This document shows, piece after piece, positions 2,617 to 55,157 of a stretch of 55,157 nucleotides of DNA. The stretch is taken from NCBI GenBank assembly GCA_022360555.1, contig JAKSCQ010000128.1:1-55157 (forward strand), given 5' to 3'. Origin of the DNA: Pseudomonadales bacterium. Lineage in GTDB: Bacteria > Pseudomonadota > Gammaproteobacteria > Pseudomonadales > Alcanivoracaceae. The notes under the pieces were generated by a model that saw nothing but the letters and a program-made list of their open reading frames with translations, was not told where the DNA came from and ran no database searches. How positions within the stretch are numbered: position 1 is the stretch's first letter; every line of letters starts with the position of its first letter. The position numbers and the translations under genes are program-made.

Positions 2617-3750
2617 GTGGCAGATGCCTCCTTGATCTATCTCAGTGGTGCCCCGGATGCCCCCTGGCAACCGCAAAGTACCGTGCTCTACCAGTCTCGA
2701 CCGGGAGAGCCGGTGCAGGCCGTGCCTCTGGAGCAGGCTTTCGCCTCGGCGAGTGGGCCGGTCAATGTGGTCGTCAGCGTGGCCAGCGCCCAACTGACCC
2801 GGGTATCGCTGAGCCGAAAACAGGCCAAGCACTTGCAGCGGGTGTTGCCCTACCTGCTGGAAGAGCAATTGCTGGATAACCCGGAAGATCTCTGGTTCGT
2901 TTCCCGCAAGGGGGAGGGTGACGACTACCAGGTGACGGCGGTGGCTCGTGAGCTGCTGACTCTGCTCAGGGAGCAGGCCGAACAGCATGATGTACAGATG
3001 ACATCAGTACAGGTGGATGCGGAGCGATTGCAGTCATTCAGCCCGCTGATTGCTGACCTGGGCGATGACCAGTGGCTTTTGGTGGCTGACCGGGAACGGG
3101 CGCTGGTTGCCGATGCGCAGCAGCGTGATGCCATTGTCCCCCTGTTCGGTGATGACTTGGATGCGGCAACCGAACTGCCCGATGCAGACAGCCTGTTTTC
3201 CGCCTTGCGCGGTGGCCAGGGGCTGGAGCTGCTCACTGGCGAGTACGCGCCACGGCAGCAGCGCAGTCAGGCCGCCATACTGGGTCCCTGGCGGCCGGTG
3301 CTGATGCTGGCCGCCTCGGTGCTGGTCCTGTCTTTGGTGGCGATCTGGGTGCAGCAGTGGCGCTACCAGAAAGCCGCCGATGCGGCCTTTGCCCAGGCCC
3401 AGCAGACCTACGAATCCCTGTTCCCGGGGGACAAGGCCACCTCGGCACTCAAACGCCAGTTTCAGGGGCGCCTGGCCCGGCTAGGTGGCGGCGAAGGCGG
3501 AGGCAGTGCCTTCTTCCCGCTGCTTGTTCCGGTGGCAGAGGTGCTCAAGCAGGTCAAGGTCGAGCCCAAACGCCTGCAGTATGATCAGCGCCAGAACACC
3601 TTGCTGCTGGACGTGGGCGCCAAGGATTATGCCCAGCTCGAAGCCTTGCAGAATGCCATCAAGAAACAGGGCGCCCGGGCGTCGATTGCCAACTACCGCA
3701 ATGGGGCTCAGGGAGTCAGTGCGCGAATCAAGGTGGAGCAACCCGGATGA
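2617..3750 (+). CDS. gspL: Type II secretion system protein GspL (GTG start)
   Basis: Actin-like cytoplasmic domain, single TM, order before gspM. Confidence 0.88.
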   Translation: MADASLIYLSGAPDAPWQPQSTVLYQSRPGEPVQAVPLEQAFASASGPVNVVVSVASAQLTRVSLSRKQAKHLQRVLPYLLEEQLLDNPEDLWFVSRKGEGDDYQVTAVARELLTLLREQAEQHDVQMTSVQVDAERLQSFSPLIADLGDDQWLLVADRERALVADAQQRDAIVPLFGDDLDAATELPDADSLFSALRGGQGLELLTGEYAPRQQRSQAAILGPWRPVLMLAASVLVLSLVAIWVQQWRYQKAADAAFAQAQQTYESLFPGDKATSALKRQFQGRLARLGGGEGGGSAFFPLLVPVAEVLKQVKVEPKRLQYDQRQNTLLLDVGAKDYAQLEALQNAIKKQGARASIANYRNGAQGVSARIKVEQPG

Positions 3751-4259
3751 CATCGGCAGAACTGAAACAGCTTGCCCGGCAGCGCTGGAGCCAACTGGAA
3801 AACTGGTACGACAGTCGCGAACCCCGTGAACAACAGGTTCTCAAGGTGCTCGCGGTCGTCGTCGCGCTGGTTCTGTTGTACTGGCTGGTGTGGGCGCCGA
3901 CCGTGAACAGCCGCGAACAGGCTCAGCGTCGCTATGTCGCCAACATGCAGACCCTGCGATGGATCGAATCGAACAGTGCAGCGGTTCGTGCCGCCAGTGC
4001 ATCCAGCAACGGGACGCAGCTCTCGCGCAACTGGGTCAGTGAAGTGAGCCGCAGCGCGGACAGCTACGGTCTGACGCTCAAGGGGTTCTCTCCGGACGGA
4101 AACCGTGCGGTGCGCATCCAGATGGAGAACCAGCCGGCTTCGCAAACGGTGATATGGCTGCAGTCGCTTCAGGAGAAAGGGGTGCAAATCACCACACTGG
4201 AAATGACACCCGGAGACAAATCCGGTACCGCGACTGTCAGAGCCACTTTGCAGCAATAA
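3747..4259 (+). CDS. gspM: Type II secretion system protein GspM
   Basis: Short cytoplasmic N-term, TM (VLAVVVALVLLYWLVW), order after gspL. Confidence 0.88.
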   Translation: MTSAELKQLARQRWSQLENWYDSREPREQQVLKVLAVVVALVLLYWLVWAPTVNSREQAQRRYVANMQTLRWIESNSAAVRAASASSNGTQLSRNWVSEVSRSADSYGLTLKGFSPDGNRAVRIQMENQPASQTVIWLQSLQEKGVQITTLEMTPGDKSGTATVRATLQQ

Positions 4260-4260
4260 T

Positions 4261-5523
4261 ATGACGCCACGCCTTCTGTTGGCGCTCGGCCTTGTCATGG
4301 CTGCCGCCAACCTTGCCGCCCAGTGCCGTTTTGGCCCGTTTGATCAGGGTCGGGTGGTAAAAGTCTCCGCCAGTGAATTGCCCATGGCAGTGGACAAGCC
4401 GCTGTCATCGTTATCGCTGATGCGGGTCGAGCAGGGCCGGTTTGTGCCCCTGGCATTCCAGTTTGATGAGCTGGATAGCCATGGCATGGTCTGGTTCGAG
4501 GATTCCGGCTTTTCCCTGGACGGCACCCCTGGCCGGTTTGACGCACAGGACCAGTTGCTGGCCATGCTCACGGATGCCGGCCCCGCCGCCCCGGACAGCC
4601 TCGAGCCGTCTTCCGGCAGAGTCCTGGCAGATATTGTCGTCGCCGACGATTGTCACCTTTACCTGGTGGAGGGCAATGACGAGCGCAGCGACAACTACTT
4701 TGTCGCCCACGATATTGAAACCGGCAGCACACGCACCGCCCTGTATGAACTGGACGTGGACCCGGACAACGAGCTCAACTGGCGCTACCTTGGCTACCGG
4801 GGTTATCAGGGGCAGGGCTCCATTATCGACACCCTGAAAATGCGCATGAGTGCCGGCGTGCTGTCCCGCTTTACCCGCATGACCCTGGATAACCATAACC
4901 TGCGCCCCAGGCAGGTGGGGCATACCGTCGGCCCCATACGCTCGGTGATGCATCTTCGCACCAAGGTGGTACTGGCCGGCATTCCGGTAATGACCATCCA
5001 GGTACAGGCGATGCGCTATGCCGCTCACTACGAAGCCCATACCTATGCCCGGATTCCCGATCTGTATCGGGCAACCCTGAAAGAGCCCGAGGTCTCCGTG
5101 ACCATTGATGGAAACAACCAGATGGGCGCGCAAATTTATACGGATGCCTTTTCCGATCGTCCGGTCACTGTGGACGGCCAGCCGGATGACGAGGAATTCG
5201 CCCGCCAGCCATTGAGCATGGACGCCAACTGGATTCTGTTCGACAGCGGCAAACAGTTTTCCCTGCTAACGGCGCTGACGGTTCCTGACGAGCTGCAATC
5301 GACACCGCTGGCCCTGATCTACCAGGATGATGCCACGCTGAATGTGGAGCCAGAACAGTTTTCCGGACAATTGCCCAATCTGGGTTATTCCCTGAAAGGC
5401 TGGCCGAGGCCGGAAGAGTTGCGTTTTACCGTCAGCCTCTACTTCGATGACGGCTTGCATGATGTGGATGCCGGTGAGTTTGCCCGGCAGCGCTCGGCCC
5501 CGGTAGAGGTCCACGTCGAATAG
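4261..5523 (+). CDS. Exported protein of unknown function, last gene of the T2SS run
   Basis: Signal-peptide-like N-terminus; starts 1 bp after gspM stop; no family recognised by eye. Confidence 0.7.
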   Translation: MTPRLLLALGLVMAAANLAAQCRFGPFDQGRVVKVSASELPMAVDKPLSSLSLMRVEQGRFVPLAFQFDELDSHGMVWFEDSGFSLDGTPGRFDAQDQLLAMLTDAGPAAPDSLEPSSGRVLADIVVADDCHLYLVEGNDERSDNYFVAHDIETGSTRTALYELDVDPDNELNWRYLGYRGYQGQGSIIDTLKMRMSAGVLSRFTRMTLDNHNLRPRQVGHTVGPIRSVMHLRTKVVLAGIPVMTIQVQAMRYAAHYEAHTYARIPDLYRATLKEPEVSVTIDGNNQMGAQIYTDAFSDRPVTVDGQPDDEEFARQPLSMDANWILFDSGKQFSLLTALTVPDELQSTPLALIYQDDATLNVEPEQFSGQLPNLGYSLKGWPRPEELRFTVSLYFDDGLHDVDAGEFARQRSAPVEVHVE

Positions 5524-47827: not shown

Positions 47828-47855
47828 ATTCTGCATAATGTATATTATGTTAAAT
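47828..47855 (+). other. dif: dif (XerC/XerD recombination) site: ATTCTGCATAA-TGTATA-TTATGTTAAAT
   Basis: Centre and XerD arm identical to E. coli dif (GGTGCGCATAATGTATATTATGTTAAAT); XerC arm keeps the GCATAA end. Confidence 0.92.
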
Positions 47856-47961
47856 AGAGCATTGCGGTTCACGCGCCCATCTTGCCCCACTGCTAGACAG
47901 AAAAATCGCCCTTGAACTAGGTTCGTGCCGCTTTTTCAGTGTCCGACAATCGACATGAAAC

Positions 47962-48013
47962 TTTCTAATGTTGATTTCGGGTGGAAATGAATAACTTTCA
48001 TTTTCTAACTGTT
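47962..48013. promoter_or_regulatory. AT-rich control region with TTTCTAA(c)TGTT direct repeats and AAATGA-n7-TCATTT inverted repeat
   Basis: 47962-47972 TTTCTAATGTT, 48002-48013 TTTCTAACTGTT, 47985-48003 inverted repeat; directly upstream of 48055 gene. Confidence 0.5.
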
Positions 48014-48054
48014 TAAGCGTTCACTTTTTAACCAGTTTCTGAGGGAAGAACATC

Positions 48055-48456
48055 ATGGACCGACGTGTTTTGAGGGTACCGGTTCCACCTGGGGTTAACG
48101 TGAAAGCGCCGTTTTGGATCAGCCAGGCGGCCGCCATGGCCCTGACTGGCCGCTCAGTGGGGACTGTGCGGCGCTGGATTCGCACTGGCCGCATCGCGGA
48201 TACCGCGGCGCTGCACCTGCTTCAGCTTCGCGTTTATGGGCAACTGCTGCACGATGGCTGGCAAGGCTGGCGTGTGGTTGACGGGGCGCTGATCGGCCCG
48301 GATGGCCGCACGCATGAAATAAAGCAACTGGAGACGCACTGGGTAACGCTACAGCTTGTGGGTGCCCTGCGGCGCCGCTGTGACGATCTGGAGCGAGAAT
48401 TGGGGGATGTGCGCCGGCGGGCGGCGAAGCGTCACCGCTTCCGCCTGGTGGACTGA
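48055..48456 (+). CDS. Phage HTH/DUF3653-like protein, putative regulator
   Basis: ISQAAAMALTGRSVGTVRRWIRTGRI HTH-like; GWQGWRVVDGALIGPDGRTHEI resembles DUF3653; only plus-strand gene of the element. Confidence 0.6.
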   Translation: MDRRVLRVPVPPGVNVKAPFWISQAAAMALTGRSVGTVRRWIRTGRIADTAALHLLQLRVYGQLLHDGWQGWRVVDGALIGPDGRTHEIKQLETHWVTLQLVGALRRRCDDLERELGDVRRRAAKRHRFRLVD

Positions 48457-48462
48457 TAGCAA

Positions 48463-48488
48463 AAAGCCCAGGGCAATGCCTGGGCTTT
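48463..48488. terminator. Bidirectional terminator AAAGCCCAGG-gcaatg-CCTGGGCTTT
   Basis: 10-bp arms between convergent 48055 gene and the structural/lysis operon. Confidence 0.8.
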
Positions 48489-48514
48489 CTCGATGTGTCG
48501 CCTTTTCAGGCAGA

Positions 48515-48598
48515 TCACTTTTTCTTTTTGCGCACGCCGCGCTTGGTCAGCCGGTACCCTTTTTTGATACGGCCCTTGCTGTCACGTCCCTTGGCCAT
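48515..48598 (-). CDS. 27-aa highly basic peptide MAKGRDSKGRIKKGYRLTKRGVRKKKK
   Basis: Hand-translated; 14/27 Lys/Arg; overlaps upstream gene by 17 bp, between it and the terminator; not in ORF track. Confidence 0.6.
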   Translation of the reverse strand: MAKGRDSKGRIKKGYRLTKRGVRKKKK

Positions 48599-48806
48599 GG
48601 TTCTGTTCCTCCAGGGCTGTTACTCGCCAGTTCAACAGGGTCACGTCCTTGGCGATCGCCTGCACCTCTTTCCGCAGCTCGCGGACTTCCTGTGCCACGG
48701 TGTGGCTTTGTGCCACGTTTCCCCCGCCCAGGGCCGTGACCAGGACGGCCAGGCCGATCAGGCTCTTATTCTTCGATGTGTCGCTCGATGGCTGCGTCAC
48801 TGGCAC
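48582..48806 (-). CDS. Small TM + coiled-coil protein (74 aa)
   Basis: LIGLAVLVTALGG TM followed by heptad region. Confidence 0.65.
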   Translation of the reverse strand: MPVTQPSSDTSKNKSLIGLAVLVTALGGGNVAQSHTVAQEVRELRKEVQAIAKDVTLLNWRVTALEEQNHGQGT

Positions 48807-48927
48807 TCTCCGCTGCGGTGGAAATGGTTTTGCTGGTGACGGGGTCCAGGCCGGTAAAGCTCAGGCCAAACCCGACCAGCAACCCCACTACCCCCCATTC
48901 GCTGACTTTCTTCAGAAACTTCTTCAT
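48766..48927 (-). CDS. Small membrane protein (53 aa) MKKFLKKVSEWGVVGLLVGFGLSFTGLDPVTSKTISTAAESASDAAIERHIEE
   Basis: Hand-translated; overlaps endolysin stop by 4 bp; one TM; not in ORF track. Confidence 0.65.
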   Translation of the reverse strand: MKKFLKKVSEWGVVGLLVGFGLSFTGLDPVTSKTISTAAESASDAAIERHIEE

Positions 48928-49475
48928 ACAAACGCCTCGCTGATGCTCACATAAACTTGTTTTCCGCCCCGGTAGACGCCGGCCCAGGTGGCCGGGTTGG
49001 CCGGGGTGCGGTCGGTGCGCACGTCCAGGTGCATGCCCGGGCGGTTCCAGTCCGGGTAGATGCCGATGCCGGTAAAGCCCACTTGCTTGGCGATTTCATA
49101 CCAGCGCCGGCGCTCCTGGGCGCTGGGGCCATCGGGTGGCAGCGGGTGCACGTCGATGGCCATGATTTCGCCGTGTAGCGCGTAGTTGTGCCAGGACTTC
49201 TCCGCCCCACTCTCTGCCTGACCGCCGCCGATGATGGGGCGGCCGATGGCGCCGGGGGCGCTGCTGATTGCCACGGGGTAGCCCAGGGCCTTCCTGAAGG
49301 CGTCCAGCTTCAGCAGCAATTCGACGTTCATCAGCGGCCAATAGGGGCCGAATTCCGAGGCGCTGAAGTGCTCCAGGGGCAACTGGTCACGCTTGGCCAC
49401 TTTTGCCCGCCGGGCCAACTCCAGGGCGCCCGCTATGGTTAGTGCTCCCATGATCCACCATCCAGCACGAGTCAT
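48924..49475 (-). CDS. N-terminally membrane-anchored M15-family peptidase (endolysin/virion lysin)
   Basis: N-terminal TM; SWHNYALHGEIMAIDVHP and GIGIYPDWNRPGMHLDVR match Peptidase_M15 metal-site pattern. Confidence 0.8.
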   Translation of the reverse strand: MTRAGWWIMGALTIAGALELARRAKVAKRDQLPLEHFSASEFGPYWPLMNVELLLKLDAFRKALGYPVAISSAPGAIGRPIIGGGQAESGAEKSWHNYALHGEIMAIDVHPLPPDGPSAQERRRWYEIAKQVGFTGIGIYPDWNRPGMHLDVRTDRTPANPATWAGVYRGGKQVYVSISEAFV

Positions 49476-49891
49476 TAGCAGCCTGTGACCGTGCCCGGCT
49501 GACGAACCTCAAGCCGGGCAGAAACCTGGGCAACCGTGCTGGCATCCGCAGCATTGGTGACCTCGAATTCCCAGCGCAATTTGCTTTGCCCCTCCACGCC
49601 GGCCAGGTCCACATCTTGAACGCCGGTAAAATCCTGGGCAGCACTCAGGTCCAAGGTGACTGTTGCCAACGTGTTGTTCCCATCGGTCAGGCGCAAGTCA
49701 GCACTGCCCCCGGCGCTGGCCTGGTTCAGTGTTACCGCATAACCGAAACGGGCCGGTTTATATGGCAGGTTGGCCAGGTCGTGGAGCTGGGGTTTCATCC
49801 CCTCCGGGGTTTCCGTAGTCGCTACGGTTGCAGCATCAACACTGCGCACGCCACCGAAAGCAAATTCGCCCACAGACGCGATAAATGGCAT
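49475..49891 (-). CDS. Beta-rich phage protein, possible minor capsid/vertex protein
   Basis: MPFIASVGEFAFGG start favoured; alternating beta pattern; between spike-like and endolysin genes. Confidence 0.55.
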   Translation of the reverse strand: MPFIASVGEFAFGGVRSVDAATVATTETPEGMKPQLHDLANLPYKPARFGYAVTLNQASAGGSADLRLTDGNNTLATVTLDLSAAQDFTGVQDVDLAGVEGQSKLRWEFEVTNAADASTVAQVSARLEVRQPGTVTGC

Positions 49892-49901
49892 TGTCTTACT
49901 C

Positions 49902-51368
49902 CTATTCAAGCGGCAGGTCGTCATCAATCGTGATGGCGACCCGGCAGGGAATGAAAATTGTCATGTGATCGGTGTAGCCACGGGCTTGCAGGCTGCGGCT
50001 GCCGCCTTCAAGCACTGTCGCCCGCCCACCAAACTGGCTGGATGACGCCTCGAACCGATAAACGTGGTCCAGGTATCCGGCACCTACTACGCGGCTGAAG
50101 TACATTTCCAGGGCCGCCTTGATCACTTCGCCTTGAACGGTTACCAGGCTGGCGCCTTGGGTCAGCGCGACATCGGCGGAGGGAATGAAGCGGTACCCGG
50201 CAGGCACAACACAACCGGCTTTCGTTACGTTGAAGCGGGCCGGGTCGGTGATTTCTTCATACGCATAAACGCCTACTTGTCCATCAGAGGCGTGGGTACT
50301 GGCCCCTGTTCCCTGGATCGCAACAAAACGCCCCAGCGGCGCAAATCCTTCAATGGCAGGGCTGCCCAGGTAGGCCGATCCACTAATGTCGCCGTGGTCC
50401 ACAATCTGGGACAGGTCCTCATTCACCACCATAAAATTCTGGCTGTAATACGCGATGACACCCACGCCCCGACGATCATCCCAGCGGATGCGGAGATTGT
50501 TGTTATTCAGCAGCCAGGCAGGCTCGGGAAACTGCTCGTGCGTCCCGTCTTTTGCCACTTTCCACCAGCGTTTGAGCGAATCACGAACGACCAGGTGCTG
50601 GCCATCTTTCCAGGTGCAGAATGTAACAATGTTGGCATTGTCAGGGCACGACCAGAAAACAGGCCCCGACGGGTCCAAGCCCCGAATAATTTCCCACGCA
50701 TTCGCGCTGCTGGTTTTGATGTGCCAGTCACCATCAAAATAGGCGGCATCGGCGACGGTCCCCATTTGATAGCGCTGACTGTCCCCCATGAAAACACCGT
50801 CAGCCGTCCAGGCACGCAGACAGGTTGCCCCCTGCCACACGCCCAGATTCTGGTCATACAGCGATTCCGAGTAGAACTGATAAAAGCCCCCGGGCCCCTG
50901 AGTCACAAAGAGCCCCGTTTCTCGCCGGTAATCGTTGTATTCCAGGTCGCGCAACACTCGGAACGGAGTGCCGAGTGGCCAGCTCTTTGCCTCATTGCGT
51001 GCGGGGTACAAATCCAGTTCGATAGTGTGCCGGGTGTCATCTTTCCAAGAGCCGTCAGCACCTCGAATACCCGGCAGTACCGACACCTCGCCCTGGATGA
51101 TCTTGTCGTCAAAGTCACCCTTGCCGATGAAGAACACGGCCGCGCACTCGTTGTCCGGGTCCGGGTTGGTGACCTCGATGACGGCGACGCCACCAGGCGG
51201 CCGGCGCATGGACCCGTTTTTCACTTCCACCGGGCCATCGCTATTCCCCTGCCCGTCCTGGATATTCAGAATCAACGGCCGGTCGGAGAATTTGCAGAAG
51301 ACGAAGTCACCGACGGCACGCAATACCACGGTGCTGCCGGCGGGAATCAGGGTGCGCTTATCAGCCAC
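49902..51368 (-). CDS. Putative spike/penton-type receptor-binding protein (488 aa)
   Basis: Largest gene in the element; beta-rich N-terminal domain plus long beta-repeat C-terminus. Confidence 0.55.
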   Translation of the reverse strand: MADKRTLIPAGSTVVLRAVGDFVFCKFSDRPLILNIQDGQGNSDGPVEVKNGSMRRPPGGVAVIEVTNPDPDNECAAVFFIGKGDFDDKIIQGEVSVLPGIRGADGSWKDDTRHTIELDLYPARNEAKSWPLGTPFRVLRDLEYNDYRRETGLFVTQGPGGFYQFYSESLYDQNLGVWQGATCLRAWTADGVFMGDSQRYQMGTVADAAYFDGDWHIKTSSANAWEIIRGLDPSGPVFWSCPDNANIVTFCTWKDGQHLVVRDSLKRWWKVAKDGTHEQFPEPAWLLNNNNLRIRWDDRRGVGVIAYYSQNFMVVNEDLSQIVDHGDISGSAYLGSPAIEGFAPLGRFVAIQGTGASTHASDGQVGVYAYEEITDPARFNVTKAGCVVPAGYRFIPSADVALTQGASLVTVQGEVIKAALEMYFSRVVGAGYLDHVYRFEASSSQFGGRATVLEGGSRSLQARGYTDHMTIFIPCRVAITIDDDLPLE

Positions 51369-51855
51369 GCTTTTTACTCCATGCCTGGGAAATGATGTAC
51401 AGCGCCACCACCACGGCCAGCGCGGTCAGGCCGTACTTGGCCAGCTTGTTCAGCAGGTCGGCGGTTTCGCTACGGTTGGACTCCTGGGCAATCGCCAGGG
51501 CCCGGTCGATGGTCTGGGCATTCATCTGGTCGGAGTAGCGCAGCTGGTCGGTCAGTTCATCGGCGAACAGCTTGTTTTGCTCGCCGGCCGCGTCGATCAC
51601 GCGACCGGTCAGCGACTCCGCCAGGGCGCCGGACTGCGCCACGCTCTGGCCGGCAAGGTCCAGGGCACCAAAGCCCAGATTCATGCCGGCGTCGATGGCG
51701 CCCTGGTCGCTCATGACGACCGACCCGTTAAAATCACCCTCGCTCAAGCCCAGGTTAAACCGGGCCCCATCACCGACACTGTTATCCGCCAGCTGTAGCG
51801 TATTTTCATCAATGTTGGTGATGTTGTTTGTGCGGCTGCTACTACGGCTGCCCAT
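51361..51855 (-). CDS. C-terminal TM protein with alpha-helical ectodomain (164 aa), putative virion membrane protein
   Basis: LAKYGLTALAVVVALYIISQAWSKKRG tail anchor. Confidence 0.65.
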   Translation of the reverse strand: MGSRSSSRTNNITNIDENTLQLADNSVGDGARFNLGLSEGDFNGSVVMSDQGAIDAGMNLGFGALDLAGQSVAQSGALAESLTGRVIDAAGEQNKLFADELTDQLRYSDQMNAQTIDRALAIAQESNRSETADLLNKLAKYGLTALAVVVALYIISQAWSKKRG

Positions 51856-52204
51856 GGGGTCGAATCCTCATTACCAGTTCATCCAGGGCCCAGCCCTCGC
51901 GCTCGTAAATGCGCCGCAGGCCGGGGCGCTGAATGTGTGTTCTCAAGCCCAGGCCCGCCGCCAGTGCCCGCCGGGTGACATGCTCGATCACCGGGCGGGC
52001 GCCCCGCCCTGCCCCGACCACAATCACCACCTCGTTCAGTTCCTGCCGCGTCACCATGTGGCCGGTGCCGCCGTCATGTTCCCAGCGCCACAGGTCACTG
52101 ATGCCCTGGGAAACTTCCTGCCGGATCACGTCCAGGTCGCCCCGTGCAGCCCCTTCCAGGGCCGCGCCGATTTCCGGCGTCCAGGGCACGCGGGTCACCC
52201 TCAT
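51842..52204 (-). CDS. GNAT-like small protein in capsid operon (120 aa)
   Basis: VIVVGAGRGARPVIEHVTRRALAAGLGLRTHIQRPGLRRIYEREGWALDE resembles GNAT motif A/B; start MRVTRV at 52204. Confidence 0.55.
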   Translation of the reverse strand: MRVTRVPWTPEIGAALEGAARGDLDVIRQEVSQGISDLWRWEHDGGTGHMVTRQELNEVVIVVGAGRGARPVIEHVTRRALAAGLGLRTHIQRPGLRRIYEREGWALDELVMRIRPHGQP

Positions 52205-52443
52205 TTTTTCTTGAAGACAAGAAACCAGATCAGCAGCGCCGCCACGGCCGCCAGGGCCAGCCACATGGGCCAACTGGCTTGCTGCCGATACAGGCCCTTG
52301 TTGGGGTTGCCGAAATTGAAGTCCTTGGACCCGGTGGCGACGTTTTGCTCGCCGTCGCTACCGCTGTACGCCGGTGCGGAGCTGGTGGCGCCCTGCAAGG
52401 CGTTGCCGCCCAGGGCCAGTGCTGCGCCCCCCATCAGATCCAC
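52201..52443 (-). CDS. Small C-terminal TM protein (80 aa)
   Basis: WPMWLALAAVAALLIWFLVFKKK. Confidence 0.65.
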   Translation of the reverse strand: MDLMGGAALALGGNALQGATSSAPAYSGSDGEQNVATGSKDFNFGNPNKGLYRQQASWPMWLALAAVAALLIWFLVFKKK

Positions 52444-52577
52444 CCCTTTTTGTAGGCCAGGTACCCGGCACCACCCAGCAGGGCCAGCGTGCCCAGGGTC
52501 TTGGCGCTATTGGTGACGGCCAGGGTGCCGCCGGCACCAGCCAGCAGCCCCAGACCACCCACGATCAGTAACGGCAT
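52434..52577 (-). CDS. Small hydrophobic protein (47 aa) MPLLIVGGLGLLAGAGGTLAVTNSAKTLGTLALLGGAGYLAYKKGWI
   Basis: Hand-translated, overlaps neighbour start; two hydrophobic segments; not in ORF track. Confidence 0.6.
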   Translation of the reverse strand: MPLLIVGGLGLLAGAGGTLAVTNSAKTLGTLALLGGAGYLAYKKGWI

Positions 52578-52579
52578 GA

Positions 52580-52873
52580 TCAGTCCTTAACAGCGGTATA
52601 GATCAGGAACCCCGCCAGCAGAGCGCTGCCCACCATGATGGGCACCTTGTACTGCTGCCAGACTTGCCCGGCCGGGTTGGTGGGGGTCGGCCCCACCGTG
52701 GTCGGGTTGGGTACCTGGTCCGGGATGGTTTCAGGGCGCGAGACGTTGGCCGGCTCTTCGTTCAGCTTGTTCACCACCTGGTTCTTGGCGGCGTCAAAGA
52801 CATCCCCGGCCGCATTGCCGAGGGTGTCCAGGCCTTCATCCAGCTTGCCCCAGATATCACCGAAGATACTCAT
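52580..52873 (-). CDS. C-terminal TM virion-type protein (97 aa)
   Basis: Amphipathic N-term, Pro-rich linker, TM VPIMVGSALLAGFLIYTAV. Confidence 0.65.
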   Translation of the reverse strand: MSIFGDIWGKLDEGLDTLGNAAGDVFDAAKNQVVNKLNEEPANVSRPETIPDQVPNPTTVGPTPTNPAGQVWQQYKVPIMVGSALLAGFLIYTAVKD

Positions 52874-52882
52874 GGCTCCCCC

Positions 52883-53722
52883 TTAGTCGCCCAGGACGCC
52901 CATGGTCTCCAGCAACATGGTGATGTTCTGCTGCCCGCTGGATGTCAGCAGGTAGCGGAAATCGTTGTAGCCGGCCAACTGGATGGGGTCGCCCCCGTAG
53001 CCGCGCTCGGTCTTGTCGATAACGACCATGCCGGACTGCGGCACCAGTTTGTTGTCCGACTGCAAGCGCTCGTTCAGGGCCTTGCTGCGCTCCCAGATAG
53101 AACGCAAATTCCGCTCCACCTTCACCTTGTCGATGGTCTCGCCCGACCCCTCGAACAGAAACGCCCGGTTCAGCGCGATGGTGGTGGGGCCGCCAAACGG
53201 GATGTCCGAAATCTCGAATTCACCCGCGCCAGACAGGTTCCGGCGGAACCGCTTGATGTGCATGATGGTGCCGGGGCCGTTGGCGCTCGGGTTCGCCTGG
53301 GTGGCATTCATTTCCAGGGCCGGGGCCGTGGCCGCCGGGTCGATATCAATTTCCACGTTAAACGCGGTGATCTGACGGCCGTCAGGGCCAGGCACCCCGG
53401 TGGTGATACCGGTTTCCACTTCGGCGGCCATGGTTTTCAGCTTCGACCGGATGAACGGAATGCGCAGGATGCCATTGGCGGGCGCCATGCCCATGTATTG
53501 GTTCATCTTGTCCCGCTCAGTGGCCGAGTACGTGTGAATGGCCTTGCCGTTGGCCATGACACGAATCTCGGTCATCTGGGCCAGCGTCACCCCGGAATAC
53601 ATCAGTTCCAGTTCCAGGTACTGCCGGCCAATCTGACACTTGAACGTGGCAGTCTGGCCCGCCGCCACCCCTTCCGGCGACGGTACGCGCTGCTCGATCA
53701 GGCTCATGTTTGCTACGGTCAT
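52883..53722 (-). CDS. Double-jelly-roll major capsid protein, PM2 P2-like (279 aa)
   Basis: VAAGQTATFKCQIGRQYLELELMYSGVTLAQMTEIRVMANGKAIHTYSA and FNVEIDIDPAATAPALEM...FEISDIPFG align well with my recollection of PM2 P2. Confidence 0.85.
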   Translation of the reverse strand: MTVANMSLIEQRVPSPEGVAAGQTATFKCQIGRQYLELELMYSGVTLAQMTEIRVMANGKAIHTYSATERDKMNQYMGMAPANGILRIPFIRSKLKTMAAEVETGITTGVPGPDGRQITAFNVEIDIDPAATAPALEMNATQANPSANGPGTIMHIKRFRRNLSGAGEFEISDIPFGGPTTIALNRAFLFEGSGETIDKVKVERNLRSIWERSKALNERLQSDNKLVPQSGMVVIDKTERGYGGDPIQLAGYNDFRYLLTSSGQQNITMLLETMGVLGD

Positions 53723-53731
53723 GACTGCCTC

Positions 53732-53848
53732 TTAGTCGTCGAAAATGAGTTCGTTGGCCGGCTCCAGGGCATCAATGTTCTTGATGGCCCAGATCACGGC
53801 GAGAGTGGCCACAACGGCCAGGCCGATGGTTTTATGCTGCGCTTTCAC
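53732..53848 (-). CDS. Small TM protein (38 aa, GTG start) MKAQHKTIGLAVVATLAVIWAIKNIDALEPANELIFDD
   Basis: Hand-translated; overlaps upstream ORF by 17 bp, 9 bp before MCP start. Confidence 0.55.
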   Translation of the reverse strand: MKAQHKTIGLAVVATLAVIWAIKNIDALEPANELIFDD

Positions 53849-53939
53849 GTTTGCGCTCCTTCAAATGCTCAATGATCAGGTAAGCCGCAACGCTGGCAGC
53901 GGCGCCAACTGCAAACTGCATCAGGTACTTTTTCTGCAT
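53832..53939 (-). CDS. Small TM protein (35 aa) MQKKYLMQFAVGAAASVAAYLIIEHLKERKRESAA
   Basis: Hand-translated; single TM and basic tail; first gene after terminator. Confidence 0.55.
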   Translation of the reverse strand: MQKKYLMQFAVGAAASVAAYLIIEHLKERKRESAA

Positions 53940-53991
53940 GGGTCCGCTCTCTGCGTTGTTGGTTTTTTCAGCAAACCCCAAACCGCAGGCA

Positions 53992-54018
53992 TAAAAAAAG
54001 CCCGCAAAATGCGGGCTT
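53992..54018 (-). terminator. Terminator AAGCCCGC-attt(t)-GCGGGCTT-TTTTT for the ATPase transcript
   Basis: Stem at 53998-54018 followed on minus strand by T7 run. Confidence 0.8.
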
Positions 54019-54053
54019 ACCTATAGGTTCGTACCGGTGGAAATTCGTTGATT

Positions 54054-54737
54054 TTAGTCGCTCCAGCGTACCCCTTTCGGGCTTTTCGCCTTGATGGTAA
54101 TCAACTCCGGCGCCTTCGCGCTGCCGTCATCCACATAGAACTGCAGCTTGTCCAGGGCCCGCAACTGATCCACCGTGACACCGATTTCCTCCGCCATCTT
54201 CTTAAGCTGCTTCAGGGTTTTCTGTTGGCCAACATACTTGTGCTCGCACTGCTCGAAATAGGTCTTGGGGATCTCCTGCGGCCGCTGGGTGGTGCCGTGG
54301 AAAACGCCCCCATACTTGCGCATCTCGTTCAGCAGGATCGCCGCCATGGGGGTGGCCTTGGCCGTGCTGATACTCACGGCTGACAGTTCCTCAGCCAGCG
54401 CATAGGTGCGGTACCGGCCATCCAGGGACCGCCAGACCGCCTCACACCACCATTCGTAGTTGTCCACCGTCCTGGGCCCGGAAAACGCTACCCGGAAACC
54501 GGCACCGGTTTTCAGGTTGCGCTCGATGCCCTTGCGCAGCGCCACCAGAAACCCCTTCTTTGTGCGGAAGTGGTCGCCCGGATGATCCGGCGCGTGGTCC
54601 CACAGGATCACCCGGGCGCCCCGCTTCGGAATCTTCGGGTTCTGTAGCAGCGCCTGAGACTTCCCCCCGCCACTAACGGACGTGTACAGGGTGTGGTCGT
54701 TCGGCCAGCGGCCGTCGGGGTTAGGCGGCGTCCACAC
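54054..54737 (-). CDS. Genome-packaging ATPase (FtsK/HerA-like, PM2 P9-type)
   Basis: TSVSGGGKSQAL P-loop-like, TYALAEEL Walker B, HGTTQRPQEIPKTYFEQCEHKYVGQQ sensor region; likely GTG start at 54737. Confidence 0.78.
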   Translation of the reverse strand: MWTPPNPDGRWPNDHTLYTSVSGGGKSQALLQNPKIPKRGARVILWDHAPDHPGDHFRTKKGFLVALRKGIERNLKTGAGFRVAFSGPRTVDNYEWWCEAVWRSLDGRYRTYALAEELSAVSISTAKATPMAAILLNEMRKYGGVFHGTTQRPQEIPKTYFEQCEHKYVGQQKTLKQLKKMAEEIGVTVDQLRALDKLQFYVDDGSAKAPELITIKAKSPKGVRWSD

Positions 54738-55157
54738 GTTTGGCGTCCCCCTCTGCGGCCCCGTTGTCGTCCTGGGAAAAATCCACCCGGCCGGCAGGCT
54801 GCGGCGCCGCACCGGTCTGCTGCTGGGCCCGGCGCCGGCGCTCCTCGATGATGCGGCGCTGTTCATCGGCCTTGTGTTTCTGTACCTGGACATAAACGGA
54901 AAAGCCAGCCGTGCCGATGGCCACGCCAAGGTCTATTTCTTCCTGGTATTTCTTCATCCAGGGCGGCGGCTCATAGTGATATTTTTTAAGCACCGGTGCC
55001 GCTTTATCGATCAGATTCTCCTTTTGTTTGTCGTCGATCTGCACATAAGGATATTTCGCCTCCAGGAGCTGACTGGTGAATCCAACGGCCATAGCTGCGC
55101 CCACACGCGCCGCTGCCAGCTCGGCGGCGTCCTGTTCGGCCTTCGCCTTGTCCGCCT
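54721..55157 (-). CDS. Membrane/charged-tail protein, start beyond window edge
   Basis: Frame is open through 55157 (ADKAKAEQDAAELAAARVGAAMAVGF...); TM-like LGVAIGTAGFSVYVQV and charged C-term. Confidence 0.55.
   Translation of the reverse strand, partial: ADKAKAEQDAAELAAARVGAAMAVGFTSQLLEAKYPYVQIDDKQKENLIDKAAPVLKKYHYEPPPWMKKYQEEIDLGVAIGTAGFSVYVQVQKHKADEQRRIIEERRRRAQQQTGAAPQPAGRVDFSQDDNGAAEGDAKRVDAA

Follow-up and report, generated by a model that had tools for sequence, protein, structure and literature searches.

The stretch of DNA analyzed here (the window) is the entire contig C292, of 55,157 nucleotides, from the genome of an Alcanivorax-type bacterium (genus Alcanivorax) whose assembly comprises 339 contigs and is 92% complete. 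From position 47856 to its right end, the window carries the left half, with the structural genes, of a temperate icosahedral virus without a tail (order Vinavirales), present as a prophage beside the dif site of its host. It is likely, in our judgment, that this prophage was integrated at dif by the host recombinases XerC and XerD (XerCD), with a phage protein bearing a helix-turn-helix (HTH) and a DUF3653 domain acting as their activator and with no viral integrase taking part. Tailless prophages are widespread and poorly annotated. The kind found here is already known, from PM2-like prophages (described in 2007, PMC1950889, and in PMC5894146) and from Vibrio (PMC9966536, PMC11630473), and the prophage itself is ordinary for its group; the interesting part is its integration module.

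In the mechanism that we propose, the free circular form of the virus would carry, between the DUF3653 gene and a repressor gene, an attachment site (attP): a 28-mer that resembles dif and in which one recombinase arm is good and the other degenerate. Host XerC and XerD would recombine this attP with dif, and the HTH/DUF3653 protein, a distant relative of the XerD activator XafT of TLCphi, would activate XerCD at the phage site, so that an integrase would be unnecessary. After integration, an intact dif would stand on the DUF3653 side and a degenerate copy at the far end, and the intact dif should keep chromosome dimer resolution working. According to PMC9765430, XafT is a XerD-activating factor that lets an element of V. 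cholerae escape FtsK dependence; for the system described here, we infer XerD activation, independence from FtsK and the order of strand exchange.

The left end of the prophage, 47856, is the base directly after dif. The earlier note on this DNA, made from the sequence alone, had placed the boundary exactly at this position, but it had not named the host dif site there. This dif is the only match in the assembly, and all 18 Alcanivorax genomes compared have a single dif each. On its left stands an RND membrane-fusion gene that keeps this place in nine further genomes, and the DNA on the right of dif differs in nearly all of them; a conserved left flank and a variable right flank indicate that dif is an insertion hotspot where new DNA enters on one side. 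Another tailless prophage occupies the same place at dif in G017. Between this prophage and that of the window, the block from dif through the DUF3653 gene is about 78% identical in DNA and 86% in amino acids, as against 25% for the capsid proteins. In four further Alcanivorax genomes (G001, G006, G013 and G016; loci L045, L031, L037 and L028), the right flank of dif is nearly identical and dif has the variant TTATGTTAATA; the flank of G001 encodes two tyrosine-recombinase-like proteins, which are likewise present beyond the G017 prophage.

The association of the gene with dif was evaluated among relatives carrying the same capsid family, which is present in 6 of 97 close relatives and in 22 of 394 genomes of the order; among viral contigs, a single-protein scan returned none and an alignment-based scan three. 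Eleven relatives are bounded by a pair of dif-like sites, at a distance of 10.5-14.3 kb, and a further two, whose contigs are short, have one site each. A DUF3653-family profile, seeded with seven members and iterated, matched exactly one open reading frame (ORF) in each of the 13 dif-located elements and none in the 13 elements located elsewhere (2190 ORFs; ten of the 13 matches were not seeds). The Pfam DUF3653 model recognises just part of the family, and the genes of L013 and L015, missed by BLAST comparison, were detected by the profile. A tyrosine integrase (PF00589) was found in 12 of the 13 non-dif loci, the exception being L076. No PF00589 integrase was among the matches listed between the dif copies of the ten two-ended elements searched, a set that omitted the Exilibacterium element L021. 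Of the features of a Xer-dependent element (IMEX), the left dif is present in the window, and two-ended dif with no such integrase among the matches listed in ten relatives. A plain Fisher test of gene against location, which ignores kinship, gives 2e-7. Mapped on the capsid tree, the state switches five times, with four or more of the switches on supported branches, and dif location and gene move together each time; the four independent pairs alone give p 0.125, being too few for significance. The split recurs in Vibrio: five records have a DUF3653-family gene and no annotated integrase, three have an integrase and no such gene, and one has neither; it should be noted that two of the first five have nearly the same capsid and two carry an IS629-like transposase.

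The identity of the gene points in the same direction as its distribution. The window protein (133 aa) matches DUF3653 (PF12375) with 31.3 bits (E 2.3e-7), over the gathering cut-off of 22.4, and the NCBIfam model NF040522, which describes the VC1465-family Xer recombination activation factor, with 36.6 bits (E 3.8e-9). This model also matches the corresponding protein of NO16 (1.6e-12) and gp a of PM2 (1.9e-7); at E<0.01 it was found in 21 of 23 corticovirus-like members tested, the window protein included, plus one protein in a filamentous-phage context. An AlphaFold prediction for the 133-aa protein by itself gave no useful information (pLDDT 51). We read the gene as a distant homologue of XafT (VC1465), probably similar in role, a reading that rests on the NCBIfam model together with the description of XafT in PMC9765430. 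Proteins matching NF040522 occur in about 70 Vibrio phage records, many of them filamentous (e.g., L068, 6983-7339), so that this activation factor is common to unrelated virus realms. In addition, the proteins of NO16 (L010, 6606-7037) and PG21 (L095, 1-417) are annotated as S-adenosylhomocysteine hydrolase and match DUF3653 and/or the Xer activation model; this label is probably a misannotation.

The DUF3653 gene could instead be merely a second regulator of lysogeny, with XerCD integrating the phage alone and the place beside dif being an inherited gene order. The HTH domain suits a regulator, and a separate repressor-like gene in each element makes two regulators possible. In NO16, genes 6 and 7 were proposed as lysogeny regulators, gene 7 being a possible repressor, and the expression of gene 7 was 21-fold higher under lysogeny-favouring conditions (PMC9966536); such a rise would equally suit an integration factor. 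We consider this explanation unlikely, since in relatives with an integrase the structural genes and, as a rule, a regulator are still present, and the DUF3653 gene is lost exactly on leaving dif. Moreover, the best curated match of the protein is to a Xer recombination activation factor, and the dif-to-DUF3653 block is common to prophages with unrelated capsids in one host genus.

The arrangement of the dif copies agrees with the attP proposed above. In dif-located elements the intact copy adjoins the DUF3653-family gene, and the other copy, near the repressor gene, has an intact center and one degenerate arm, which is the XerD arm in nine elements and the XerC arm in G017 and G055. In unintegrated genomes, a half-site of this kind lies between the DUF3653 and repressor genes; this was observed in NO16, PM2, Cr39582, GXT1010 and the metagenomic viral contig L026, and the same position is found in a V. 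gazogenes plasmid of 11.9 kb with a P2 gene. We considered whether the gene accompanies only TLCphi-like sites, those with a degenerate XerC arm, and rejected this, given the nine gene-bearing elements in which the XerD arm is degenerate; what does hold is an intact arm on the DUF3653 side and a degenerate one on the repressor side. From the orientation of its intact junction, the window prophage would belong to the class of G017 and PM2.

Several observations weigh against integration of the window prophage by activated XerCD. The window protein falls under the curated NF040522 cut-off of 70 bits, so it counts as a homologue, though the curators' threshold would not admit it to the family; every other match of the model among the proteins tested is also below that cut-off, and L071 and L077 have no match. 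The degenerate XerD arm of many homologues differs from sites with an intact XerD arm, and the pathway may therefore differ from that of TLCphi. Integrase genes are reported to be regular constituents of the tailless prophages that occupy dif in Vibrio (PMC11630473). Finally, the right half of the window prophage lies beyond the end of C292 and is unseen, so that a second dif copy and the absence of an integrase are predictions for this element.

We extend the proposal, with somewhat less confidence, to the tailless varidnaviruses in general: their HTH/DUF3653 proteins, among them PM2 gp a and the so-called hydrolase of NO16, are probably phage-borne Xer activators that form, with the one-armed half-site, a host-genus-matched cassette that is exchanged whole for integrase cassettes from one capsid lineage to another. 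For tailless Vibrio prophages at dif, the choice between host XerCD and an integrase of their own was left "inconclusive" (PMC11630473, 2024). The near-complete split between DUF3653-family gene plus dif half-site, on the one hand, and integrase, on the other, offers a candidate gene and a predicted attP for that question. On this view PM2, which was considered strictly lytic in 2007 (PMC1950889), would carry an integration cassette, and the dif/DUF3653 pattern provides a precise way to locate where such prophages end. The dif-like sites of NO16 and PM2 themselves have been described (PMC9966536). A possibly comparable case comes from Alphaproteobacteria: the attP of phage Jorvik resembles dif, and no integrase is predicted for this phage. 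A variant with changes in the HTH gene adjacent to attP and in the intervening DNA formed no stable lysogen (PMC10589892). We found no open-access paper that joins the DUF3653 gene with the Xer integration of tailless phages; earlier statements may exist elsewhere.

The viral nature of the region, a partial PM2/corticovirus-like tailless prophage according to the earlier note, is supported by capsid fold, ATPase and gene order. The 279-aa capsid protein, which the note had described as PM2 P2-like in sequence, matches both Pfam domains, P2_N (8.6e-32) and P2_C (1.5e-28), each over its cut-off, and the solved chains 9t9v and 2vvf (PM2 P2). Its AlphaFold model (pLDDT 77, pTM 0.79, from an alignment of 7 rows) is closest in fold to PM2 P2 (E 5e-18, TM 0.73/0.75), and other double-jelly-roll capsids come next; the double jelly roll on which the note had made its proposal depend is thereby borne out. 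The P2-type capsid and a P9-type ATPase encoded directly upstream of it place the virus in the Vinavirales/PM2 group. The packaging ATPase that had been proposed is confirmed by its match to PM2 P9 (29%, 4e-20) and to the NO16 ATPase; it is 58% and 53% identical to the ATPases of L073 and L014. No convincing portal or tail protein was found among the nine larger ORFs scanned with PHROG, in agreement with the absence of tail, portal and terminase genes noted before: the ORF with a weak "tail assembly" match (2e-4) is the HTH/DUF3653 gene, and the "terminase" family matched by the ATPase corresponds to the PM2-type packaging ATPase. Small hydrophobic ORFs flank the capsid gene on both sides, as had also been claimed; an inner membrane in the particle is predicted, and these putative transmembrane proteins hint at it.

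The PM2/corticovirus label held as kinship at the level of the order, with one correction: the capsid is 56% identical to those of Livvievirus 1.249.A (Autolykiviridae) and D526, the closest among isolated phages, and about 30% to that of PM2. Because the capsid is nearer to the Autolykiviridae Livvievirus than to PM2, we leave the family placement open. With these two phages the window also shares the order of the small transmembrane proteins, the acyltransferase-like gene and the spike position. This kinship could suggest the prophage form of an autolykivirus with protein-primed PolB and a linear genome, which we hold to be highly improbable. 1.249.A and D526 have PolB and a terminal protein, and their ATPase is unmatched by that of the window, which matches PM2 P9 instead. 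Moreover, three autolykivirus-type genomes contain no DUF3653-family gene and no convincing dif-like site, whereas the same-clade prophages L021, L071 and L072 carry the dif/DUF3653 module, L071 and L072 together with a homologue of the NO16-type replication protein (Rep).

With the other known systems, the likenesses concern mainly architecture and integration. PM2 and Cr39582 (Corticoviridae) have the P2 fold, the P9 ATPase and the gene order; their gp a is of the DUF3653 family and runs convergent to the structural genes, and a dif-like half-site separates it from gp c. They differ in the capsid (about 30% identical) and in the type of lysin, and the replication region of the window is unseen. 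The NO16-like vibriophages ("Asemoviridae", PMC9966536) are temperate, of about 10.6 kb, with a dif-like site and a DUF3653 gene, but their capsid is 31% identical and the gene was read by the authors as a possible repressor. The tailless prophages of Vibrio cyclitrophicus (PMC11630473) are Vinavirales, some at dif, in DUF3653-type and integrase-type classes; they belong to other capsid lineages, and for those at dif the authors considered the mode of integration inconclusive. TLCphi of V. cholerae, with XafT (VC1465), is a dif element that relies on the XerCD of its host and brings its own activation factor, a homologue of the window protein by NF040522; it differs in being a satellite without virion genes (PMC4246890), and the window protein lies under the family cut-off.

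Only the left 7.3 kb of the prophage are in view, since contig C292 ends within it (55157). The relative G011 has a host gene of 416 aa at a distance of 162 bp past dif. Its best match in the window genome (69%) stands at the end of contig C17, which stops about 100 bp beyond that gene. By this flanking gene, C17 is probably the other host flank of the prophage, and the early region is probably in the unassembled gap between C292 and C17. The alternative that the prophage is a decayed remnant, with its right half deleted rather than unassembled, agrees with profile searches of the assembly, which found no homologue of the repressor or of P14, an empty result that is weak evidence. We regard decay as quite improbable, because all visible genes are open, the contig breaks in mid-gene, and C17 likewise stops at a contig end, as in an assembly gap. 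The prophage would presumably retain its right half and be inducible. The sole match to PM2 P12 in the assembly (35-40% identity) is at 542-2452 of contig C137 (L019, G000:C137), near the contig start. This contig was rejected as the missing right half, as the Rep gene is followed by a 1051-aa helicase-like gene on the opposite strand and not by structural genes; its P12-like gene is perhaps part of another mobile element.

The features of the prophage are listed in the table below. From the contig end, the minus strand encodes the gene at the gp h position, the ATPase, a transmembrane protein, the capsid, three transmembrane proteins, the acyltransferase-like protein, another transmembrane protein, the spike candidate, the 150-aa protein, the M15-type lysin and two small ORFs; the convergent HTH/DUF3653 gene on the plus strand comes last.

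Features of the prophage and its left junction (window coordinates; TM, transmembrane)
Feature	Position	Strand	Basis or remark
dif site, left prophage/host junction	47828..47855	+	ATTCTGCATAA TGTATA TTATGTTAAAT (XerC arm, center, XerD arm)
HTH + DUF3653 gene, 133 aa, candidate Xer recombination activation factor	48055..48456	+	Pfam DUF3653, NCBIfam NF040522
Small ORF, N-terminal hydrophobic stretch	48582..48806	-	ORF call only
Small ORF with hydrophobic stretch	48766..48927	-	ORF call only
M15-type peptidase, likely lysin	48924..49475	-	PHROG endolysin 7e-4; Pfam M15_3 E 0.019, under cut-off
150-aa protein, probable minor virion component	49475..49927	-	Same-position homologues in L071, L026, L015, L013
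488-aa spike/receptor-binding candidate	49902..51368	-	Position and conserved stretch in six relatives; function inferred
164-aa TM protein	51361..51855	-	Homologous to D526 gene 9 and 1.249.A gene 16
N-acyltransferase-like protein	51842..52273	-	38% to 1.249.A gene 15 (annotated acyl-CoA N-acyltransferase)
Small TM protein	52201..52443	-	C-terminal hydrophobic segment
Small TM protein	52434..52577	-	Hydrophobic ORF
Small TM protein, P3 position downstream of capsid gene	52580..52873	-	C-terminal hydrophobic segment, PM2 synteny
Major capsid protein, PM2 P2 type, double jelly roll	52883..53722	-	Pfam, solved chains, fold match
Small TM protein, P7 position upstream of capsid gene	53832..53981	-	PM2 synteny
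Packaging ATPase, PM2 P9 type	54054..54737	-	Walker A motif GGGKS; start codon uncertain, open frame to 54929
Gene at PM2 gp h position	54722..55155	-	Cut by contig end; homologues directly upstream of ATPase in L016, L014, L073

The lysin and the spike-like protein named in the earlier note also found some backing. For the former, in addition to the weak Pfam M15 match and the PHROG endolysin match, same-position proteins occur in relatives, that of L014 being 65% identical; in the latter, a stretch of about 115 aa at the spike position is 37-43% identical in relatives, and the function is suggested by this position.

Two observations concern other elements of the survey. In the prophage L014 (G031), two overlapping ORFs (3423-5338) stand in place of one intact P12-like replication gene, and this prophage may be defective or the assembly may contain a frameshift. 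In L085 (G106:C5, 9.8 kb), which lacks an integrase, a dif-like site and a DUF3653-family gene, the gene order wraps round the contig ends, and it is perhaps a circular extrachromosomal tailless virus.

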